Origin: a virus
DNA length: 45,635 nt
Virus record (IMG/VR): IMGVR_UViG_3300031999_001333
Coordinates: 1-45,635 of that record
Direction: 5' to 3' (one strand)
Shown: one piece after another, positions 4,537-45,519 of the stretch
Numbering within the stretch: position 1 is the stretch's first letter
Layout: the number at the start of each line of letters is the position of its first letter
The notes under the pieces: model-generated
What the model was told of the DNA's origin: nothing
Databases searched by the model: none
Seen by the model: the letters and a program-made list of their open reading frames with translations, nothing else
Made by a program: the position numbers and the translations under genes

Positions 4537-4940
4537 ATAAATTAATATACATCAATGGTTTAGGTCCAAACTATAAAGGTGATAATATATATGAATTTAT
4601 ATTTTCAGATACTTTAGAAGTTTGGGGTGAGAATTGGGATTCAAAACCGGCAAATGGTTATCCACTTCCTCCTGACATTGAATATATTAAAAAAGTTGGT
4701 GTATTAAGAAACGGAGAAATAACATTGGAATTAATACAAGATTCCGATGTTTTTTCACTTATAGACGCAACTGACGATGTTATTGCATTAGGTTGGGAGA
4801 AAGAAACCGAAGAACTGGATTTCTCTATAACAAAAAGGTTAGTGTTTAAATTTGGACAAACCGAAGAAGAAGTAAAAAATAAATTATATGAACGAGACAT
4901 CGTTCTTGAGTTTGAAAAAAAGGTAGTATATGAAAACTAA
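4533..4940 (+). CDS. Hypothetical protein, conserved position in head-gene chain
   Basis: This 135-residue acidic, probably globular protein has no recognised domain. Visible features are Trp-Gly-Glu-Asn-Trp near residue 33, a Pro-rich Y-P-L-P-P segment, and alternating hydrophobic residues suggesting beta structure. It starts inside the stop of the upstream gene (ATGA overlap), and its own stop overlaps the next start by 11 nt. It is therefore probably translationally coupled and made in proportion to its neighbours, as expected for a virion or assembly component. Confidence 0.7.
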   Translation: MNKLIYINGLGPNYKGDNIYEFIFSDTLEVWGENWDSKPANGYPLPPDIEYIKKVGVLRNGEITLELIQDSDVFSLIDATDDVIALGWEKETEELDFSITKRLVFKFGQTEEEVKNKLYERDIVLEFEKKVVYEN

Positions 4941-7181: not shown

Positions 7182-7189
7182 TATTTATA
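7182..7189 (+). promoter_or_regulatory. TATTTATA element, candidate late promoter for the terminase
   Basis: TTGATATTTATAGTT, ending 13 nt before the ATG at 7203 and directly after a terminator-like hairpin. Confidence 0.45.
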
Positions 7190-7202: not shown

Positions 7203-8966
7203 ATGGGTTTTACTAAAGAACAAGTAATGTTGGAGTATGTCAAATGTATGAAAGACACTCCATACGCATTAAAAACATATCTACAAACTTACGATAATAC
7301 GGTGTCACAATATGTTCCACTACAATTATTTCCCGATCAGGTGTCTTTGTTAGAGGATTATGATAAATACAATGAGAATATTGCACTGAAATATCGTCAG
7401 GCGGGTGTATCAACTGTAACCGCGGCTTGGGTGTCCAAGAAACTTGCGTTTGCTAAAAAAAACAAACCTGAAAAAATCCTAATTATTGCCAACAAATTGG
7501 ATACATCGTTAGAGATGGCTAATAAGATTAAGTCATTTGTTTCTCAATGGCCGAAATGGGTCGGTGCAGATTTCTCCACTGAAAAAAATTCACAGAAACA
7601 TTATAAATTAACAAATGGTTGTGAGGTTAAAGCGGTTGCGACATCAAAGGATGCTCTTCGTGGATTTACTCCTACGGTTCTTATATTTGATGAGGCGGCG
7701 TTTATTGAAGCCGACAGTGATTTTTGGTCGGCTTGTATGGCATCCCTATCCACAGGGGGTAAAGTAATTGTGGTATCAACACCAAACGGATACGATAGAA
7801 TTTATTACGAAATATATGATCAAGCGTTAAGAAATATGAACGACTTTAAAATTACAGAAATGTATTGGTTTAGAGATCCTCGTTACACAAAAGATTTATA
7901 TTTAGTTAAAACTGAAGATATTATTCATTACCTGCTAAATAAAGAAGAATATACTGAAGATCAGATATTAAGTTGGGAAGGTATTCCATTTGAAACAAGA
8001 AATTATGACGATCTTAAAACCATAATGGACACAGGATACAAACCTTGTTCTGATTGGTTTGAGAAAATGGTTAAAAAACTTAAATACGATAAGCGTAAAG
8101 TTTCTCAAGAGTTAGAATGTAACTTCCTTGGATCGGGGGATAATGTATTTGATTCAAAAATGTTACAAACAATTCGTGAGAATATGCTTAAAGAACCCCA
8201 AAATAAAATGATGGGCAATTCTTTATGGATATGGAAGGAACCAGTTATTGGACACAAGTATATAATGGGGGTTGACGTTTCTCGTGGGGATAGTGAGGAT
8301 TTTTCAACAATACAAATTATTGATTTTGATGAACGAGAACAAGTTTTAGAATATATTGGAAAAATTCCACCTGATGTTTTGGCTGAAGTTGCCTATAAAT
8401 GGGGTAATATGTATTCCGCTTTTATTGTGGTGGATATCACAGGTGGAATGGGTATTGCAACATCAAGAAAACTACAAGAACTTGGATATAAAAATATGTA
8501 TGTTGACGGGGTTGATTTAAACAATACTTGGAAATACAATCCAAAGTCACTTGATAAAATCCCCGGTATTAACTTCAACAATAAAAGGGTTCAAATCATT
8601 GCGGCTTTTGAGGAAGGAATGAGACATAAGTTTAGAATGTATAGTTCAAGATTATTCAATGAAATGAACACATTTGTTTATGTTAATGGTAGACCGGATC
8701 ACCAAAAAGGACATCACGATGATTTAATTATGTCAATCGCAATGGCGTTGTATGTTGGGGAATCTTCGTTTTCAAGTTTGGAAAAGGTAACCGAACAAAC
8801 AAAGGCGATGTTGGATTCTTGGACGGTAAGTAATAATGAATCAGTTAAAAATATAATAGATTTTAACCCCGTAATTCCACATATGAATCAAGATAGGTTT
8901 AGAGACAATTCAAGTGCAAGTAGAAAGGATTATGAAACCTATGGGTGGTTATTTGGGAGTAGATAA
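7203..8966 (+). CDS. Terminase large subunit (T4 gp17-like)
   Basis: This is the ATP-driven DNA packaging motor and headful nuclease, 587 residues, close to the usual size. ATPase part: Walker A variant Y-R-Q-A-G-V-S-T (about residues 64-71), Walker B T-V-L-I-F-D-E-A-A-F, and the coupling motif V-I-V-V-S-T-P-N-G. Nuclease part (RNase H fold): G-V-D-V-S-R-G-D-S-E-D, then F-I-V-V-D-I-T-G-G, then G-H-H-D-D-L-I-M-S-I-A. These supply the catalytic acidic residues. It works at the portal vertex of the prohead with the portal protein encoded at 9224. The gene has its own promoter-like element and follows a terminator. No small terminase was recognised nearby. Confidence 0.97.
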   Translation: MGFTKEQVMLEYVKCMKDTPYALKTYLQTYDNTVSQYVPLQLFPDQVSLLEDYDKYNENIALKYRQAGVSTVTAAWVSKKLAFAKKNKPEKILIIANKLDTSLEMANKIKSFVSQWPKWVGADFSTEKNSQKHYKLTNGCEVKAVATSKDALRGFTPTVLIFDEAAFIEADSDFWSACMASLSTGGKVIVVSTPNGYDRIYYEIYDQALRNMNDFKITEMYWFRDPRYTKDLYLVKTEDIIHYLLNKEEYTEDQILSWEGIPFETRNYDDLKTIMDTGYKPCSDWFEKMVKKLKYDKRKVSQELECNFLGSGDNVFDSKMLQTIRENMLKEPQNKMMGNSLWIWKEPVIGHKYIMGVDVSRGDSEDFSTIQIIDFDEREQVLEYIGKIPPDVLAEVAYKWGNMYSAFIVVDITGGMGIATSRKLQELGYKNMYVDGVDLNNTWKYNPKSLDKIPGINFNNKRVQIIAAFEEGMRHKFRMYSSRLFNEMNTFVYVNGRPDHQKGHHDDLIMSIAMALYVGESSFSSLEKVTEQTKAMLDSWTVSNNESVKNIIDFNPVIPHMNQDRFRDNSSASRKDYETYGWLFGSR

Positions 8967-9223: not shown

Positions 9224-12200
9224 ATGGAACAAAATCAAAATAATCTAACTATTTGGCAAAGATTATCTCAAGTATTTGGTCCGAATTCTTTATTAGGTCA
9301 AGATTTACCAACATACAAACTTGATAAAACAGAGTTATTAAGAACCACAGATAAGAAAGAATACGAACTTGAGAAATTACAAACTCAACAATCAATGTAC
9401 CTGTCGGGACAATGGGCAAAGATTGAGAATAACTTATACACACAAGCGGTTTATTATGAACCAACAAGATTAGCATCATTTTATGATTATGAATCAATGG
9501 AGTTTACTCCTGAAATTTCTACTGCCTTGGATATCTATTCTGAAGAATCAACTACCGCAGATCAAGATGGTTATATATTACAGATATATTCTGAATCAAA
9601 AAGAATAAAAGGAATATTAGCAGATTTATTTAATAATATTTTAGATATTAACACCAATCTTGCAATGTGGACAAGAAATACCCCTATTAGAGAGGATAGT
9701 ATGATACCATTATTAGATGGGACTGAAATAACTATTAAAGAATTATCCGATAGAGTTAAATCTGGTGAAGAAATTTGGTCTTACGCAATACAAGATGGTA
9801 CAAAAGCAATTGTTCCTAGTAAAATTATATGGTGTGACCTTACTAGAAAAGATAGTGAATTAATAAGAGTCACTTTGGATGATGGGACATATATTGATAC
9901 AACACCAGATCACGAGTATATGCTTAGAGATGGGTCATATAAACGAGCTGACTCTTTAACTGAAGGACAATCTTTGATGCCTTTTTACACTAGAAAAAGT
10001 GAAAAGAAACAAGATTGTATTGTTGGTTACGAAAAAATATATAACCCTAGTACTACTAAATATAAATTTACACATTCTTTAGTTGCACATGAATGTGTTA
10101 GGGATTTAGAATATGAAAAATCTATTGGTAGTCAGTTTGACACACATCATTATGATTTTAATAAATTAAATAATAACCCTAATAATTTAATTAGATTAAC
10201 GCATTCGGATCATTTCAAACTGCATGTAGAACATTTTGATAAAATATTGGGCTCACCAGAAGTGGTTAAAAAAAGAATGGTGGGTGTTGATAAATATCTT
10301 AGGTCTGATAAAAGAAAACAAAGATTGTCTCAAGAAATGTCCGGCATTTACCCTAAATATTTTGAACAATATAATTTTAGTGATTTACATACAGAACACA
10401 ATAAAATTCGTTCTGAAAAAATGTTAAATAATTGGGATTCTGTAGAATTTACAGAAAAAACTAAAAAAGGTATGACTATTGAAATTAGTGATGATTGTTT
10501 AGAATATATTTCAAATTTAATTATTAATAACGAAAATTATATCGGAATCAATAAACTATCAGAATTATTAAAAAATGATGATGATTTTATTCAACTTTTT
10601 AAGGTTAATTATTCATTAAGAAAAGATATAAAAAAATCAATTAACCCAACAACACTTAATAAAGTTATTTTTAGAAAAACTAATAAAAATTATTTTGATT
10701 TTGTTTTAGGTGTTAAACCAATCCTTATTTTAGATAAATCGTATATAAAAGCAAAATCAATTTATTTAGGTAAAACAAAAGAAAATCACTTATTAAACCA
10801 TAAAGTGGTTTCTGTTGTTAAATTAATTGAAACATCGGATGTGTATTGTTTAGAAGCTGTTGGACCTAACGGTGAACACGATAGACACAACTTTCCAGTG
10901 TTAGGTAAGGACATAAATGGTTCATACTCAAGAACTTCTGGTGTGTTTTTATCCAACTGTAAATACGGAGATAACTTTGTTTACTTAAAACTTGATCCTG
11001 AAAAAGGTATTGTTGGTTGTATGCAATTACCTAATATTGAAATTGAACGATTAGAGAGGGGTATGGCGGCAAAATCGGTAAATGCCGAAGTTGACCCAAA
11101 ATCAAAAGGTTTAAGATTCCATTGGAAAATTAAAGATATGGAATTTAACTCCTGGGAGATTGCCCACTTTAGATTATTGGGTGATGATAGAAAACTTCCT
11201 TACGGTACTTCTATGTTAGAAAAAGCAAGACGTATATGGAAACAATTATTATTATCTGAAGATGCAATGTTAATTTATCGTACATCAAGAGCTCCTGAAC
11301 GAAGAGTATTTAAAGTTTTTGTTGGTAATATGGATGATAAAGATGTTGAATCATATGTTCAGCGTGTTGCAAACAAATTCAAACGAGATCAAGTAGTGGA
11401 TTCAAAGACAGGTAATGTTGATATGAGATTTAACCAAATGGCGGTAGATCAAGATTATTTTGTTCCTGTAAGAGATGTTGCACAAACAATGCCGATTGAG
11501 ACATTAGCAGGAGCTCAAAACTTGTCTGAAATTGCGGATATTGAATACATTCAAAAGAAATTGGTAACCGCATTAAGAGTTCCTAAAGCGTATTTAGGAT
11601 TTGAGGAAGTTGTTGGTGACGGTAAGAATCTATCATTACAAGATATTCGTTTTGCAAGAACTATTAATAAGATACAAAAAAGTATGATTGCCGAAATGAA
11701 TAAAATTGCAATCATTCACCTATACTTATTAGGATTTGAGGATGAATTACAAAACTTTACATTAGGTCTTACAAACCCATCCAAACAAGCAGATTTATTG
11801 ATGATTGATGTGTGGAAAGAAAAAGTTCTTTTATATAAAGATTTGGTTACTGAAATTCCTAACACAATCCAACCAACATCCGCAACTTGGGCTAAAAAAC
11901 ACATTTTTGGATTCTCTGATGAAGATATTAAATTGGATGTCCAACAAATTAGATTAGAAAGAGCGGTTGCTGCAGAACTTACTAATACTCCAACAATAAT
12001 CACACATACAGGTATGTTTGATACTGTTGATAAATTATACAAAAGTAAATCAGGAACAACTCAAAATGCCGCACCACCAGCTGAAGGAGGTGAACCGCCT
12101 ATGGGAGGAGGAATGCCACCTATGGGTCCTGATATGGGAGGAGAACCTGATATGGGAGGTGAAGCACCACCACCATTACCGGAAAATAAAGAAAAAAATA

Positions 12201-12319
12201 ATTTAAATATTTTGTTAGAAAGTGACGATTTCCACGAGGATTCTTACATTGATTTAGGTAAAGCGAGAAATTCTTTAGGTTCAATGGAAGATGCATTGAG
12301 CAAATTGTTAAGAGATTGA
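9224..12319 (+). CDS. Portal protein (T4 gp20-like) interrupted by an intein
   Basis: The portal dodecamer forms the DNA entry vertex, nucleates head assembly and docks the terminase. The N-extein (residues 1 to about 152) ends in D-I-N-T-N-L-A-M-W-T-R-N. The C-extein resumes at C-K-Y-G-D-N-F-V-Y-L-K-L-D, then W-E-I-A-H-F-R-L-L-G-D, L-P-Y-G-T-S-M-L-E-K-A-R-R-I-W-K-Q-L, R-A-P-E-R-R-V-F, and the A-L-R-V-P-K-A-Y-L-G-F-E region, all typical of gp20 homologues. Removing the intein leaves about 605 residues. The C-terminus has a Gly/Pro/Met-rich stretch (repeated M-G-G and P-P-M-G) followed by an acidic helical tail. If the intein fails to splice, no portal is made, so splicing is under strong selection. 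Confidence 0.95.
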   Translation: MEQNQNNLTIWQRLSQVFGPNSLLGQDLPTYKLDKTELLRTTDKKEYELEKLQTQQSMYLSGQWAKIENNLYTQAVYYEPTRLASFYDYESMEFTPEISTALDIYSEESTTADQDGYILQIYSESKRIKGILADLFNNILDINTNLAMWTRNTPIREDSMIPLLDGTEITIKELSDRVKSGEEIWSYAIQDGTKAIVPSKIIWCDLTRKDSELIRVTLDDGTYIDTTPDHEYMLRDGSYKRADSLTEGQSLMPFYTRKSEKKQDCIVGYEKIYNPSTTKYKFTHSLVAHECVRDLEYEKSIGSQFDTHHYDFNKLNNNPNNLIRLTHSDHFKLHVEHFDKILGSPEVVKKRMVGVDKYLRSDKRKQRLSQEMSGIYPKYFEQYNFSDLHTEHNKIRSEKMLNNWDSVEFTEKTKKGMTIEISDDCLEYISNLIINNENYIGINKLSELLKNDDDFIQLFKVNYSLRKDIKKSINPTTLNKVIFRKTNKNYFDFVLGVKPILILDKSYIKAKSIYLGKTKENHLLNHKVVSVVKLIETSDVYCLEAVGPNGEHDRHNFPVLGKDINGSYSRTSGVFLSNCKYGDNFVYLKLDPEKGIVGCMQLPNIEIERLERGMAAKSVNAEVDPKSKGLRFHWKIKDMEFNSWEIAHFRLLGDDRKLPYGTSMLEKARRIWKQLLLSEDAMLIYRTSRAPERRVFKVFVGNMDDKDVESYVQRVANKFKRDQVVDSKTGNVDMRFNQMAVDQDYFVPVRDVAQTMPIETLAGAQNLSEIADIEYIQKKLVTALRVPKAYLGFEEVVGDGKNLSLQDIRFARTINKIQKSMIAEMNKIAIIHLYLLGFEDELQNFTLGLTNPSKQADLLMIDVWKEKVLLYKDLVTEIPNTIQPTSATWAKKHIFGFSDEDIKLDVQQIRLERAVAAELTNTPTIITHTGMFDTVDKLYKSKSGTTQNAAPPAEGGEPPMGGGMPPMGPDMGGEPDMGGEAPPPLPENKEKNNLNILLESDDFHEDSYIDLGKARNSLGSMEDALSKLLRD
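9680..10957 (+). mobile_element. Contiguous intein with HNH homing endonuclease, in the portal gene
   Basis: About 425 residues inside the portal protein form a Hint module plus endonuclease. The start is P-I-R-E-D-S-M-I-P-L-L-D-G-T-E-I-T-I-K-E-L. Block B is T-T-P-D-H-E-Y-M-L (T-x-x-H present). The HNH domain contains T-H-H-Y-D-F-N, N-N-P-N-N-L-I-R-L and H-S-D-H-F-K-L-H. Block F is D-V-Y-C-L-E-A-V with H-N-F-P-V. The end is V-F-L-S-N before Cys+1. The first intein residue is Thr153 or Pro154 of the precursor, not the usual Cys/Ser, and the penultimate residue is Ser instead of His. The exact left boundary is uncertain by one residue. Confidence 0.88.
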
Positions 12320-12327
12320 TATTTATA
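12320..12327 (+). promoter_or_regulatory. TATTTATA element, candidate late promoter
   Basis: TTGATATTTATAAATAAAA, 13 nt before the ATG at 12341. The sequence contains both TATTTATA and TATAAATA, overlapping. Confidence 0.45.
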
Positions 12328-12340
12328 AATAAAAACGATT

Positions 12341-13057
12341 ATGAAATTTGGTTTATTAAAATCACAGATAGAAAATATGTTAATTGAATCATATAAAAAT
12401 GAGTCAATGAAAAATAATATGTTTATTTTTAACGAGTTAGTTCTTAAAAATAAAAACATTAGTAGAGTGTTCTACTTATACGATGAATTAAATTCCAATA
12501 AAGGACTTAATGAGTCCGTTGCAGGTGAATTTGTGAATCAAAGCGTAATTGTTTATGAAAACTTAATCAATAAAATTAACCCTAAAGAATTGAAAGAAAT
12601 TCAAATGTGGGTGGGACATATTCAGTGTGAGAATACTTACACATTGGTTGATGATTTATTCTCTAACAATGTGACGAATTTAGAATCTAAAATTAAAAGT
12701 AAAAATACAATTTTAGAAAACCTAAAAACCGAACCAAAAAAAGTAAAAGAAATTGTTAATGTTCCAATAAAAACTATGGTTAATGTCGCAAATAAAACGG
12801 CATCAAATTATATTGAAAGTTTAACCGAATCGGATAAAACCGAATTAAAGAAACTTTTATCTTCAGACGATGAAACTATAAAGGAGTCCTACTTCATCCT
12901 AAAAGGAAAAGTAATCTCTAAATTAGAGACACTACAAGAAGGAGATCAAGATAATGAGGTAACTAATAGAATAGACGAAACAATACAAAAAATTCAAGAC
13001 GAATCTTTTGATAAAGTTGGATATTTTAAGTTACGAAAATTAAATGAGAATCTTTAA
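12341..13057 (+). CDS. Hypothetical helical protein, possible head-core protein
   Basis: This 238-residue, almost entirely helical, Lys/Glu/Asn-rich protein was not recognised. It begins M-K-F-G-L-L-K-S-Q-I-E-N-M-L-I-E-S, a short amphipathic helix ending in L-I-E followed by S at residues 14-17, compatible with prohead-protease cleavage. It lies between the portal and the protease genes, where T4 encodes its small core proteins (67, 68), so a core or scaffold role is plausible. Its stop overlaps the convergent bS21 gene by a few bases. The start is the first ATG, 13 nt after a promoter-like element. Confidence 0.7.
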   Translation: MKFGLLKSQIENMLIESYKNESMKNNMFIFNELVLKNKNISRVFYLYDELNSNKGLNESVAGEFVNQSVIVYENLINKINPKELKEIQMWVGHIQCENTYTLVDDLFSNNVTNLESKIKSKNTILENLKTEPKKVKEIVNVPIKTMVNVANKTASNYIESLTESDKTELKKLLSSDDETIKESYFILKGKVISKLETLQEGDQDNEVTNRIDETIQKIQDESFDKVGYFKLRKLNENL

Positions 13058-13239
13058 TCGTTCATAAATTGTTGACGATAAATAGCTCTTTTCTTAACAT
13101 CTCTTTTAGTGATTGACTTCTTTTTAAATTCTTTTCTACTATTAAGTAGAGAATTTTGACGAGTCCTAATAATTTTACTTTTTAGTTCTTTAAGGGCTTT
13201 TTCAATTTCCCCATTCTTATTCACCTTAACTATTAACAT
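13054..13239 (-). CDS. rpsU: Ribosomal protein bS21 homologue
   Basis: This 61-residue, strongly basic protein matches bS21 over its length: M-L-I-V-K-V-N-K-N-G-E-I-E-K-A-L-K-E-L-K, a central Arg-rich helix, the K-S-I-T-K-R-D-V-K-K-R block, and the A-I-Y-R-Q-Q end. Tyr54 falls where Bacteroidota bS21 has a Tyr (K-A-A-Y context, aligned from memory) near the 3' end of 16S rRNA. bS21 joins the 30S platform. In Flavobacterium ribosomes it helps hide the anti-Shine-Dalgarno sequence, which fits the lack of SD sites here. The gene sits alone on the minus strand inside the plus-strand head module, with an A+T-rich upstream region. Phage copies could replace or compete with host bS21; that role is inference. 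Confidence 0.9.
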   Translation of the reverse strand: MLIVKVNKNGEIEKALKELKSKIIRTRQNSLLNSRKEFKKKSITKRDVKKRAIYRQQFMND

Positions 13240-13330
13240 TACATTTTTTTAACGATTTATTCATATTTGATATATATCTCAAAATTACTTATTTTTTAAT
13301 AAAATAAACGAGACAGTATGAGAAATATTT

Positions 13331-13798
13331 ATGAAAAAAGGGAAAACCGCAAAAATTAATGGTTTTAGAACATCAAAAGTAATCTATGGGACGGTAGATT
13401 CAAAAGAATTTAAATCACTTTATCTTAATCTACAAACTTGGGCGGAACCAAAAGAAGATTATGAAACTTGGGTGAGAATCACACAGAATATGAGTAGATC
13501 AATTAAACATTCGGTGTATGATAACATAGATAAGACACTATTTGATGATAAATTTATTATTGATATGGACTTAAGAACAAGTGGTTTACATATGAAGAAA
13601 AAATCATTCTTAAATCTTGAGATAAATCTATTTTTAATAGACGAGGTGGATTTCAAAGATATAAAATTAAAAAGAAAGTTAAAAAGTATTATCAAAGGAA
13701 TTTACGACGATGTATTAAATAAGAATGAATATTTTAAATTTTATTTGACAAAAAATGGGAATATAAAAAAACCAAAGGTAAAAATGGAGAAAGTTTAA
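13331..13798 (+). CDS. Hypothetical protein in head module
   Basis: This 155-residue basic protein has no recognised family. Visible features: K-I-N-G-F-R-T-S-K-V-I-Y-G near the start, a W-A-E-P segment, R-T-S-G-L-H-M-K-K-K-S-F-L-N-L-E-I-N-L-F with alternating hydrophobics, and a Lys-rich end. It looks like a compact alpha/beta protein. It lies between bS21 and the protease gene. The ATG is embedded in an ATATTTATG sequence, so its transcript must start further upstream. An out-of-frame ATG at 13318 gives only a short peptide and was not chosen. Confidence 0.65.
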   Translation: MKKGKTAKINGFRTSKVIYGTVDSKEFKSLYLNLQTWAEPKEDYETWVRITQNMSRSIKHSVYDNIDKTLFDDKFIIDMDLRTSGLHMKKKSFLNLEINLFLIDEVDFKDIKLKRKLKSIIKGIYDDVLNKNEYFKFYLTKNGNIKKPKVKMEKV

Positions 13799-13806
13799 TA
13801 TTTATA
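13799..13806 (+). promoter_or_regulatory. TATTTATA element, candidate late promoter for the prohead protease
   Basis: TTAATATTTATATAGAAAAC, 15 nt before the ATG at 13822; it begins at the stop codon of the preceding gene. Confidence 0.45.
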
Positions 13807-13821
13807 TAGAAAACTTTTAAT

Positions 13822-14553
13822 ATGAACCAAAACAGAATATTAGGATTAAATGATGTGGGTAAGAAGGGAATTCTTATTGAATACGATTCCGGATACATTG
13901 ATCCTACAGATAAATATAATTCAGAATTAATTAAAGAATCCAAAAATTCTTTGGATCACTCAAAACCATTTGAGTTCTATGCGGTGTTACAAAAATACGA
14001 TACCCCAAATAGAAATGGTAGATTATACCCTAAAAAAGTATTAGAGCGTGAAGCCGAGAATTATAAAAAAATGATTGAGAAGGGTACTGCATTGTCAGAA
14101 CTTAATCACCCTGAATCATCATTAATAGATTTGGACAGAGTTTCTCATATAATTACTGAAGTGTGGTGGGAAGGTCCCGTATTGATTGGTAAGTTAAAAT
14201 TATTAACAAGTCCAGGATTTCACCAAAGTGGAATATGTTCCACTAAAGGAGATTTGGCAGCAAACTATTTAAGACAAGGCGTTACTTTGGGTATTTCTTC
14301 TCGTGGTGTTGGATCACTTAAAAAAGTGGGAGAACAAAATGAAGTTCAAGATGATTTTGAATTAATTTGTTTTGATTTAGTATCATCACCTTCTACTCCT
14401 GGGGCATATCTTTATTTAGATAAAAACGACAGAATGAAATTTGACGAAAACCTTGAGGAAGATAAAAAAATTGCGGTAGAAAGAAATATCGGAGATAGTG
14501 GTAACAAATCACTTGACTTAATGAAGCGTTTATCCGATTATTTGGATAAATAA
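13822..14553 (+). CDS. Prohead core protein protease (T4 gp21-like)
   Basis: This serine protease matures the prohead by cutting capsid, scaffold and internal proteins after hydrophobic-x-Glu. The 243-residue protein has the family landmarks: Y-D-T-P-N-R-N-G-R-L-Y-P, the catalytic-His region S-E-L-N-H-P-E-S-S, and the nucleophile region T-L-G-I-S-S-R-G-V-G-S-L, then F-D-L-V-S-S-P-S-T-P-G-A. The C-terminal 60 residues are acidic/helical, probably a self-cleaved or core-binding tail. It lies just before the scaffold and major capsid genes, as in T4. Candidate substrates within the window include the capsid protein (after Glu60) and several proteins with leaders ending in x-E-A. Confidence 0.93.
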   Translation: MNQNRILGLNDVGKKGILIEYDSGYIDPTDKYNSELIKESKNSLDHSKPFEFYAVLQKYDTPNRNGRLYPKKVLEREAENYKKMIEKGTALSELNHPESSLIDLDRVSHIITEVWWEGPVLIGKLKLLTSPGFHQSGICSTKGDLAANYLRQGVTLGISSRGVGSLKKVGEQNEVQDDFELICFDLVSSPSTPGAYLYLDKNDRMKFDENLEEDKKIAVERNIGDSGNKSLDLMKRLSDYLDK

Positions 14554-14560
14554 AAAAATT

Positions 14561-14776
14561 ATGGAACAAGGAGAAAAATATTTTGTCGCAAAGATTACAT
14601 CTGATTTATTAGATACTGAATCAGGTAAAGTTAAAAAAGTAAGAGAAGAAAAATTGGTTATGGGGTATACCCCAACTGATGTGGAAGCTAAAGTTACTAA
14701 AGTATATGAGAATTATACAATGGATTGGAGAATCACTTCAATCACAGAAAGTAAAATTGATGAGGTAATTGATTAA
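14561..14776 (+). CDS. Small conserved phage protein, DUF4494-like
   Basis: This 71-residue protein starts Y-F-V-A-K-I-T and contains K-V-R-E-E-K-L-V-M-G-Y-T-P-T-D-V-E-A-K-V. This matches the general pattern of DUF4494 proteins (a short beta strand, a K-V-x-E-x-Y/L-V core, then x-T-x-x-E-A), though that call is from memory. Such proteins are small, single-domain and of unknown function, found in phages and mobile elements of Bacteroidota. It lies 7 nt after the protease stop, probably co-transcribed, and before a strong terminator. Confidence 0.7.
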   Translation: MEQGEKYFVAKITSDLLDTESGKVKKVREEKLVMGYTPTDVEAKVTKVYENYTMDWRITSITESKIDEVID

Positions 14777-16436: not shown

Positions 16437-18287
16437 ATGGGAGCATTATTAGAATCAGGTCTTGTTGGTAACATCGGGTTGAAACACCTTAAAGTTATCA
16501 AAGAAGATACTATTAACAAATGGGACAAATTAGGGTTCCTAGATGGACTTAAAGGTCATCTAAAAGAAAACGTAGCTCAATTGTATGAGAATCAAGCGTC
16601 TTTCTTGATTAACGAAGCAACTTCAGAAGGTTCTAACGGAGCATTCGAAACAGTTGTTTTCCCAATCGTAAGAAGAGTTTTCTCTAAATTATTGGCTAAC
16701 GATATCGTTTCTGTACAAGCAATGAACTTACCTATCGGTAAATTGTTCTACTTCGTGCCTAAAATTCAAGGTTACCAAACAGGTAGTGGTAACAACATTA
16801 CAGGTGGAGAACACTACGCACCAATTGGTTCACCAAATAACCCAACAATTGATTCTAACGCAATCAATGCAGGATACACAGGAGCTAACGCTTACGCAAA
16901 AAATCTTTATGATTTATTTTATGAAGGTGGTGAAACTGGTTTAGATCCTCCAGGATTGTTTGATTACTCTAAAGGTCAGTGGACTGCGGTTACTGCGGAT
17001 GCTGATATCCAAGTATGGTCAGGAGGTAATTTAATTGATTCTTTAGCACCTGTAGGAAATATCAGAAAAATAATTTTGAAAATTTCAGGATTTAGAAATG
17101 CTGGAGCTGGTAAATTAGTTGGTCCTGATGGTAATGAAATGGATTCAGAAACATTCTTGTCTGATCTTAAAATTATTGCAACAACAGATTTATCTGCATC
17201 TACAACACCTTGTAATGTAACTAAAGATTCTGAAGGTAACTTTATTCCATTGTTGTTCAGAGTTGTTACTCAACAATACGGTAAAGGTATCGTACAATAC
17301 GGATCAAGATATACTACAACATTCCCTGGAACATCAACAACAGGTGGTAACGGTGGATCTTTCCAAGATATTTGTGATACTGATGGATATATCTATGTTG
17401 AAGTAGATCTTTCTTGCCCTGTATGTGCTGATTGTGACTCAACATCTTTAGATGGTTACACAGGTACAACAATTTTTTCAGGAGCATCAGGTGATTCATT
17501 TACTGCGGTTTATAGAACTTACAAAAATATGGAGTTTGAAGATCAAATTGGTGAAGTTTCTTTTGATTTGGAATCTGTAACAGTTTCTGTATCTGAAAGA
17601 AAATTAAGAGCTCAATGGTCTCCTGAAATGGCACAAGACGTTGCAGCATTCCACAACATTGATGCTGAAGCTGAATTAACGGCTTTATTGTCAGAACAAG
17701 TGGCGGCTGAAATTGACCGTGAAATTTTACGTGACTTGAGAAAAGGTGCGGCTTGGAACTTACGTTGGGATTACAACGGATGGAGAAGAATTGCACAAAC
17801 AACATCTTATACTCAAAAAGATTGGAATCAAACTTTGATTACTGCAATCAACCAATTGTCAGCACAAATCCACAAATCTACATTGAGAGGTGGAGCTAAC
17901 TGGATCGTAGTTTCTTCTGAAATTTCTGCAATCTTTGATGATTTAGAATACTTCCACGTATCTAACGCATCTCCTGAACAAGATCAGTATAATATGGGTA
18001 TTGAAAGAGTTGGTACTTTACAAGGTCGTTACCAAGTATATCGTGATCCTTACTTCCCACCAAACACAGTTTTGATTGGACACAAAGGAACATCATTGTT
18101 AGACACAGGTTACATTTACGCACCTTACGTACCGTTACAATTAACACCTACAATGTACAACCCATTCAACTTTACACCGATTAAAGGTATAATGACGAGA
18201 TACGCGAAAAAAATGGTAAATAATCGTTTCTACGCCAGAATTACTGTTGATGGAGTTAGAACATTTGATTTAAGAGAATTGAGATAA
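16437..18287 (+). CDS. Major capsid protein (T4 gp23-like)
   Basis: This 616-residue shell protein is a HK97-fold member of the gp23 group. Matching segments include V-F-P-I-V-R-R-V-F, Q-A-M-N-L-P-I-G-K-L-F-Y, R-K-L-R-A-Q-W-S-P-E-M-A-Q-D, E-I-D-R-E-I-L-R-D-L-R, G-G-A-N-W-I-V-V-S-S, and the C-terminal K-M-V-N-N-R-F-Y-A-R-I-T-V. A maturation site is likely at Glu60/Ala61 (F-L-I-N-E then A-T), very near the known gp23 cut after residue 65. The protein is longer than gp23 because of an extra mid-region (about residues 190-350) that holds a Cys cluster C-P-V-C-A-D-C. The gene follows the scaffold by 32 nt and ends in a strong terminator. Confidence 0.95.
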   Translation: MGALLESGLVGNIGLKHLKVIKEDTINKWDKLGFLDGLKGHLKENVAQLYENQASFLINEATSEGSNGAFETVVFPIVRRVFSKLLANDIVSVQAMNLPIGKLFYFVPKIQGYQTGSGNNITGGEHYAPIGSPNNPTIDSNAINAGYTGANAYAKNLYDLFYEGGETGLDPPGLFDYSKGQWTAVTADADIQVWSGGNLIDSLAPVGNIRKIILKISGFRNAGAGKLVGPDGNEMDSETFLSDLKIIATTDLSASTTPCNVTKDSEGNFIPLLFRVVTQQYGKGIVQYGSRYTTTFPGTSTTGGNGGSFQDICDTDGYIYVEVDLSCPVCADCDSTSLDGYTGTTIFSGASGDSFTAVYRTYKNMEFEDQIGEVSFDLESVTVSVSERKLRAQWSPEMAQDVAAFHNIDAEAELTALLSEQVAAEIDREILRDLRKGAAWNLRWDYNGWRRIAQTTSYTQKDWNQTLITAINQLSAQIHKSTLRGGANWIVVSSEISAIFDDLEYFHVSNASPEQDQYNMGIERVGTLQGRYQVYRDPYFPPNTVLIGHKGTSLLDTGYIYAPYVPLQLTPTMYNPFNFTPIKGIMTRYAKKMVNNRFYARITVDGVRTFDLRELR

Positions 18288-24858: not shown

Positions 24859-24866
24859 TATAAATA
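24859..24866 (-). promoter_or_regulatory. TATTTATA element, candidate late promoter (minus)
   Basis: On the minus strand CATATTTATATATTAAAA, 12 nt before the ATG at 24846. Confidence 0.45.
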
Positions 24867-44240: not shown

Positions 44241-45458
44241 TTATTTAATTAAAGATTTGTAAAAATCGCATCGGGTTTTCGTGACATTGACAAGATTATA
44301 TTTGTCTTTTACGGTTTCATATAATCTCTCACCCATATCAACAATCATATTCGGATTGTCCACCAATTTTTTAACATATTTAGCCCAATCCCCGTGATTT
44401 CTATTTTTGTCCACCAATAAAGCATTACCATCAGTAAAACTACCATTGTTAAGTGAATGTTTCAAATCAATGGTGTAAGGTCCAACATTAGACGCAATTA
44501 ATGCCTTCTTATAGAATCCCGCCTCAATAACTTTAAGTTGTGACTTCATTCGGTTAAATACATGATCAACAATTGGTGCCAATGAAATATCAAATTTAGA
44601 ATAGTTTTTAGCGTATGATGTAGTTGGTTTTGTCCAAACTCTTACATAGTTTTCATTCTCCCAACCAAGATATTCTTCATCATTAAATTTATCTAAAAAT
44701 GTTTTATATTTTGGTGTAATGATTTTATAATTGTCGGTGAATATACTTTCGTATTTAACCCATACAGTTTCTTCAGGTTTAATTGCTCGTCTTGTTTCTT
44801 GTCCTGTCTCTTTGTTAATTTCAGTTACAGTTCCTCTTGTATCAAAACCACAAACATAATACTGTAATTTATCTTGTTGAGGTTTTAATTTTGATACCAT
44901 TCCATCAAGAAGTTTTAAATCGTAAAGGTGAGACGATCCACCCAACCAACCAACTCTGATTTTATTTGATTCTAATGTTGGTTCATTAAATTGTTCCTCA
45001 TTTGGATTTATTGCATTTGGTAGGACAATAACATTTTTATTGAATTTTCTAATCTCATTCGCAAAAATTTCAGTTGTTGTTGTGATATATGAACAAACTT
45101 TCATATTCGCAACAATTTTTTCGTGGATTTTATTATTTAGAATTAGTTGACGAATTGGATGTTCTTTAGTTGGTAACCAATAATCATCAATATCCATAAT
45201 TACCACAATACCTTTTGATTTTAATTTTTCAATTAATGCGGGAGTGCTTTCATAATCATTCCCAATGTTTCTATGGAAATGAACTATTTGATATTGATCC
45301 CAATATTTATCATCATCTGTTTTTGGTTGGTAATCTATATCAACGTGGAAATCTTCTGAATATTGATTTTGTAACATTACGTGGGGGTCTAAAGATCTAA
45401 ACTTGCAAACTCCCGACGTATCTGAAGGAAGTACTAATATTTTAATTTTTTCTTTCAT
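44241..45458 (-). CDS. Family 4-like glycosyltransferase
   Basis: This 405-residue (from the ATG at 45458) GT-B-like protein includes I-K-I-L-V-L-P-S-D at the start, Y-Q-I-V-H-F-H-R-N and V-V-I-M-D-I-D-D-Y-W-L-P. The second half begins with N-A-I-N-P and I-R-V-G-W-L-G-G-S-S-H-L-Y-D-L, and the donor-binding block is V-I-E-A-G-F-Y-K-K-A-L-I-A-S-N-V-G-P. The start at 45458 (M-K-E-K-I-K-I-L-V) gives the canonical first strand; an upstream ATG at 45488 would add a short hydrophobic run. Substrate is unknown. Confidence 0.82.
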   Translation of the reverse strand: MKEKIKILVLPSDTSGVCKFRSLDPHVMLQNQYSEDFHVDIDYQPKTDDDKYWDQYQIVHFHRNIGNDYESTPALIEKLKSKGIVVIMDIDDYWLPTKEHPIRQLILNNKIHEKIVANMKVCSYITTTTEIFANEIRKFNKNVIVLPNAINPNEEQFNEPTLESNKIRVGWLGGSSHLYDLKLLDGMVSKLKPQQDKLQYYVCGFDTRGTVTEINKETGQETRRAIKPEETVWVKYESIFTDNYKIITPKYKTFLDKFNDEEYLGWENENYVRVWTKPTTSYAKNYSKFDISLAPIVDHVFNRMKSQLKVIEAGFYKKALIASNVGPYTIDLKHSLNNGSFTDGNALLVDKNRNHGDWAKYVKKLVDNPNMIVDMGERLYETVKDKYNLVNVTKTRCDFYKSLIK

Positions 45459-45519
45459 AAATAGATATATATCCCCAATAATAAACATTGATATCTATTT
45501 TATCAATAATACATAAAAT

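Follow-up and report, generated by a model that had tools for sequence, protein, structure and literature searches.

A phage bS21 gene in a head module has a host-type promoter box and lacks the extended Shine-Dalgarno sequence of host rpsU

bS21 is the ribosomal protein most commonly encoded by viruses. The closest described counterparts of the locus analysed here belong to the freshwater Bacteroidetes jumbo phages of clades a-e reported by Chen et al. 2022 (PMC9723584), whose published description already contains the locus, the aromatic residue at position 54 and the hypothesis of a late-stage ribosome hijack. A pelagiphage bS21 has been found to enter E. coli ribosomes (PMC6375957). On the host side, bS21 of Flavobacterium johnsoniae hides the anti-Shine-Dalgarno (anti-SD) sequence, and the extended SD of rpsU is read best by ribosomes without bS21, so that rpsU is autoregulated; loss of bS21 or of its C-terminal part leaves ribosomes poor at initiating on SD-less mRNA but better at initiating on rpsU (McNutt et al. 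2023, PMC9976891). The same authors suggested that host bS21 may be a target of removal by phages, which autoregulation would offset. F. johnsoniae mRNAs lack SDs and are rich in A, and A at -3, -6, -12 and -13 of their leaders is a positive determinant of initiation (PMC6847099).

The window, by which we mean the whole stretch of 45,635 nt analysed here, is a 45.6-kb virus record (IMG/VR IMGVR_UViG_3300031999_001333), classed as linear, and represents a virus of Flavobacterium-like bacteria. As originally predicted, a complete bS21 gene lies on its minus strand inside the head module, flanked by TerL, portal, prohead protease and major head protein genes on the plus strand (Table 1). Residues 4-56 of the 61-residue product align to positions 2-54 of 55 of the Pfam Ribosomal_S21 profile (PF01165), a full-length family match with E=1.4e-5 and a score of 25.2 bits, just below the 27-bit gathering score for this single sequence; all 18 of its 18 relatives match the same family. 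The product also matches the PHROG 'ribosomal protein S21' (E=3.5e-4), and its best PDB matches are bS21 chains, F. johnsoniae 7jil among them. When a profile was built from the 18 phage relatives and searched against PDB chains, the matches were almost exclusively bS21 chains, headed by 9i5v at 3.6e-18 and 7jil at 1.5e-17, with the remaining bS21 chains at 2e-6 or worse. Judged by its sequence, the ORF product is a full-length, Bacteroidota-type bS21. In an annotated phage collection, only LR756502, LR756504 and LR745206, uncultured huge phages of 635-642 kb, encode a similar bS21 (43-50% identity).

Table 1. Coordinates of the bS21 locus and the surrounding head genes in the window.
Feature	Position	Strand	Remarks
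TerL	7203..8966	+	TATTTATA upstream at 7182-7189
T4-type portal protein with intein	9224..12319	+	
TATTTATA phage leader motif	12320..12327	+	13 nt before CN ATG
Convergent neighbour (CN), 238 aa	12341..13057	+	by position, 'bS21_CN' of Chen et al.
TTAA in which bS21 and CN both terminate	13054..13057	both	same overlap in 89/107 related loci
bS21 gene, 61 aa, ATG to TAA	13054..13239	-	complete ORF, homology, Tyr54 alignment
Predicted 36-nt bS21 leader	13240..13275	-	conserved ATATATCAAATA block, no SD (-0.8 kcal/mol)
TAATTTTG, Bacteroidota sigma-A -7 box (TAnnTTTG)	13280..13287	-	40 nt before bS21 ATG
TTTA, possible -33 element	13305..13308	-	17 nt upstream of -7 box
Divergent neighbour, conserved hypothetical	13331..13798	+	91 nt from bS21 start codon
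Prohead protease	13822..14553	+	TATTTATA upstream at 13799-13806
Major head protein	16437..18287	+	

A gapless alignment with F. johnsoniae bS21, which scores 6.8 sd above shuffles, places Tyr54 of the window protein (codon 13080-13078) exactly on the host Tyr54, bearing out the predicted conservation of this residue. Among 55 unique phage bS21 proteins, position 54 is Y in 52, F in two and H in one, and was graded aromatic in all 55. K17, K20, K22, K40, S42, R46, A52 and Y54 are kept or nearly so, and phage-wide substitutions relative to the F. johnsoniae protein (R21->S, F23->V/I, D24->I, G27->R/K and T28->Q) fall in helix 1 and the linker. These substitutions lie near the mRNA path, as do those described by Chen et al. 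(PMC9723584), and speak for the proposal made in that work and in the original prediction, which we consider unlikely, that phage bS21 shifts ribosome selectivity, chiefly late in infection, in favour of phage mRNAs rather than those of the host.

The leaders themselves offer this proposal little purchase. Predicted to be SD-less and A-rich, the leaders in the window proved to be both: the mean SD duplex energy of window genes is -0.83 kcal/mol, where shuffles average -0.52 kcal/mol, and values below -5 kcal/mol occur in 4 of 47 genes vs 4.9% in shuffles; the frequency of A, 0.35 over the whole window, rises to 0.64-0.74 at -9 to -12 and to 0.66-0.72 at -5/-6. A is thus enriched where it promotes initiation on unmodified F. 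johnsoniae ribosomes. Because host mRNAs are SD-less and A-rich too, leader type cannot separate phage from host mRNA, and the window leaders, which follow the host rule, carry no obvious phage-specific mark. In the literature, the prevailing idea is ribosome substitution as such (PMC9723584, PMC6375957), but reprogramming towards SD-less leaders is not well supported.

A clearer difference emerged when we compared 80 Flavobacterium-type rpsU loci with 50 unique phage bS21 leaders, counting as extended SDs of the autoregulated rpsU type those below -13 kcal/mol. The host genes have an extended SD in 80/80 cases (-17.6 to -23.3 kcal/mol), whereas none of the 50 phage leaders has one (range -5.5 to +2.1, median +0.8 kcal/mol), and the window bS21 leader is likewise far from this threshold. 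In the available text of published work on bS21 phages and on Flavobacterium bS21, we found no statement of this contrast. An SD excess is absent from phage genes at large, so the loss may have been passive rather than selected; passive or not, its consequence is the same, in that phage bS21 is independent of bS21-deficient ribosomes.

The phage gene also differs from its neighbours in its upstream region. The primary sigma factor of flavobacteria has TAnnTTTG as its -7 box (PMC9723704, PMC6847099), and this box precedes the ATG of host rpsU by 27-32 nt in 80/80 loci. An exact box was found in 29 of 52 unique bS21 leaders vs 3.0 expected from shuffles, an expectation that serves as a guide and not as a probability because these leaders are related by descent; most of the others are one or two mismatches off at the aligned place. 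Where both elements occur, the spacing from TTTA to the box is 17 nt in 19 of 23 leaders, and the box tends to precede a conserved TCAA block, although a strict spaced pattern, TATATTTG-N9-GTCAAA, proved too rigid. With the G of the box at -5 (PMC6847099), the transcript in the window is predicted to start near 13275. The pattern TAT[AC]TTTGT was observed 9 times against 0.47 expected, upstream of a handful of further phage genes, most of them small; the count includes the bS21 gene of one relative. A search for E. coli-type sigma-70 promoters was uninformative (8 found vs 12.3 expected).

TerL, CN, the protease and other genes, in contrast, are closely preceded by TATTTATA, which occurs in the window at 776, 3017, 7182, 8967, 12320 and 13799 on the plus strand and at 24866 and 26363 on the minus strand, mostly 12-15 nt before start codons. 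Of 418 leaders from the window and two larger relatives, 73 carry a wider form of the motif that exceeds a 99% shuffle cut-off; the motif is promoter-like and likely a phage-specific promoter element. The idea that bS21 is governed by this same motif was dropped, since 0/51 bS21 leaders pass. Nor can TATTTATA be taken as strictly 'late', given that it is also found at two genes immediately upstream of DNA polymerase B, and it may therefore not be late-specific; helicase and tail-sheath genes were looked for in the records of the two relatives and none was found. From its upstream region, bS21 would be transcribed by the host polymerase, perhaps early. The late timing that had been predicted does have published metatranscriptomes on its side, in which high bS21 read counts from lakes accompany those of capsid genes (PMC9723584). 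However, the bS21 leader lacks the TATTTATA of TerL, protease and CN and has a host-sigma-type box instead, and the main text of that paper mentions neither promoters nor strand-specific mapping, so far as we found. As bS21 overlaps the convergent, expressed CN gene, the case for late expression from these data needs care.

To place the gene in its wider setting, IMG/VR was queried with bS21 and then with TerL, yielding 143 loci, of which 107 span both neighbours. bS21 sits between the two, on the opposite strand, in 107/107, a count skewed towards presence for loci retrieved by bS21 itself, and some contigs were retrieved by both queries. The start of the divergent gene is 74-105 nt from that of bS21 across related loci. 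A query with the CN family instead found bS21 in 74 of 78 spanning loci. Among the four exceptions, L250 (about 4714-4858) retains no trace of bS21, and L308 (859-1014), L309 and L310 (both 4714-4869) retain only a stop-interrupted C-terminal remnant, identical in all three over this stretch. bS21, lacking or decayed in these loci, is therefore dispensable. Its dN/dS has a median of 0.12 (58 equal-length pairs), and the gene is thus under purifying selection, yet dispensable. In these loci, CN and the divergent gene are now separated by inverted-repeat, hairpin-like sequence.

A conserved gene occupies the CN position in all loci with bS21, and by position it would be bS21_CN (fam498) of Chen et al. 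The CN protein has no known relative. Its AlphaFold model is all-helical (pLDDT 89.6); compared with the PDB, the model gave no match and no RNA-enzyme or ribosome fold, and a comparison of CN relatives with PHROG (50 members) gave no consistent pointer to any known family. A weak Pfam PRORP match (E=0.0045) had raised the possibility of an RNase P-like nuclease, which we rejected given the all-helical model and the lack of PDB matches or of a consistent PHROG family. The position of CN suggests a prohead core protein; T4 carries its prohead core genes at the corresponding place. In addition, a conserved L-x-E-S close to the N-terminal end of CN could be a site for the prohead protease.

This setting bears on an extraribosomal role, in which bS21 would act with CN or be packaged and injected as virion cargo. 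The location of bS21 inside the head module and the parallel phylogeny of bS21 and CN described by Chen et al. (PMC9723584) are consistent with such a role, but residues matching ribosomal bS21 are conserved and CN has neither an RNA-enzyme nor a ribosome fold. Furthermore, CN is kept in the four loci without intact bS21, so it does not depend on bS21 and is not its obligatory partner. We consider this explanation very improbable. Elsewhere in the window, the portal gene contains an intein insert at about 9704-10858 (Pfam Intein_splicing, E=1.2e-13) that includes an HNH-type endonuclease region; a 71-aa protein encoded at 14561-14776 (+) has 69-100% identity across loci and a DUF4494 match; and 44241-45488 (-) strongly matches a phage glycosyltransferase family (E=2.1e-46). 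No Rfam elements or tRNAs were found in the window.

Taken together, we favour, with evenly balanced confidence, a substitution of the host protein, in which phage bS21 would replace host bS21, keep ribosomes fit for SD-less initiation, and escape and repress rpsU autoregulation. The phage protein would compete with host bS21 for its site on the host 30S, and its conserved C-terminal half, which includes Tyr54, should keep the anti-SD tail buried; ribosomes equipped with it would thus still initiate on the SD-less, A-rich leaders of phage and host alike. Since the phage gene has no extended SD, its product would be made without being subject to the host's autoregulation. As free bS21 sites become occupied by the phage protein, less host rpsU should be translated, so that the replacement would reinforce itself, and an SD-less gene would blunt the autoregulatory counter to host bS21 removal. 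Substitution is favoured by the profile search, in which homology to Bacteroidota bS21 greatly exceeds that to most other bS21 chains, and further by the aromatic position 54, the low dN/dS, the conserved synteny, the missing SD and the promoter box shared with host rpsU, whereas the loss of the gene in some close relatives and the restriction of the exact box to 29/52 leaders count against it. More tentatively, and with some doubt, the gene could be a one-gene takeover switch, in which phage bS21, made from a host promoter without the feedback element, fills ribosomes, silences the SD-dependent rpsU and locks the whole ribosome pool in the phage form, possibly early rather than late. The combination suggests that a host-type promoter without the host brake would be a simple way to take over host ribosomes.

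Entry may, however, inhibit rather than sustain translation, given that pelagiphage bS21 in E. coli ribosomes reduced in vitro translation to about 5% (PMC6375957). Because this reduction in a foreign host was so strong, host shut-off remains a rival, in which phage bS21 would slow initiation and mainly hurt host translation or block translation-based defence. That test crossed phyla, though, the phage's own mRNAs rely on these ribosomes as well, and phage bS21 retains Tyr54 and the C-terminal contacts; we regard shut-off as improbable. If substitution is correct, the virus would be exploiting a self-regulation loop of the ribosome. The SD contrast turns a vague 'reprogramming' into a specific test in F. 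johnsoniae, for which reporters, bS21 mutants and depletion strains exist, and the SD and promoter contrasts together with the natural loss variants make the function of phage bS21 testable.

How, then, does this locus compare with known systems? By the published description, we found no architectural difference between the window and the phages of Chen et al. (PMC9723584): in both, bS21 is reversed between portal/TerL and prohead protease/MCP with two conserved hypothetical flanking genes, and both share the aromatic residue at position 54, helix-1 divergence and Bacteroidetes hosts. Their genomes measure 293-331 kb, whereas the window is known here from a 45.6-kb record. What the original prediction had framed as an open finding, namely the locus, the conserved Tyr54 and the idea of a late hijack, is already in that paper, and the prediction is therefore a rediscovery. 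Compared with pelagiphage HTVC008M (Mizuno et al. 2019, PMC6375957), a large myovirus, the window likewise has a phage-encoded bS21, but that of HTVC008M is of the alphaproteobacterial type, with ribosome entry tested in E. coli, and that of the window is of the Bacteroidota type. Host rpsU of Flavobacterium (PMC9976891) and the phage gene encode homologous proteins (31-38% identity) with Tyr54 and share the TAnnTTTG class of box; the host gene is autoregulated through its extended SD, which the phage gene lacks. The locus is ordinary in kind and largely published, and what is added here is the SD contrast, the promoter contrast and the natural loss variants; in the main text of PMC9723584, we found neither the missing SD, nor the host-type promoter box, nor the loss variants.
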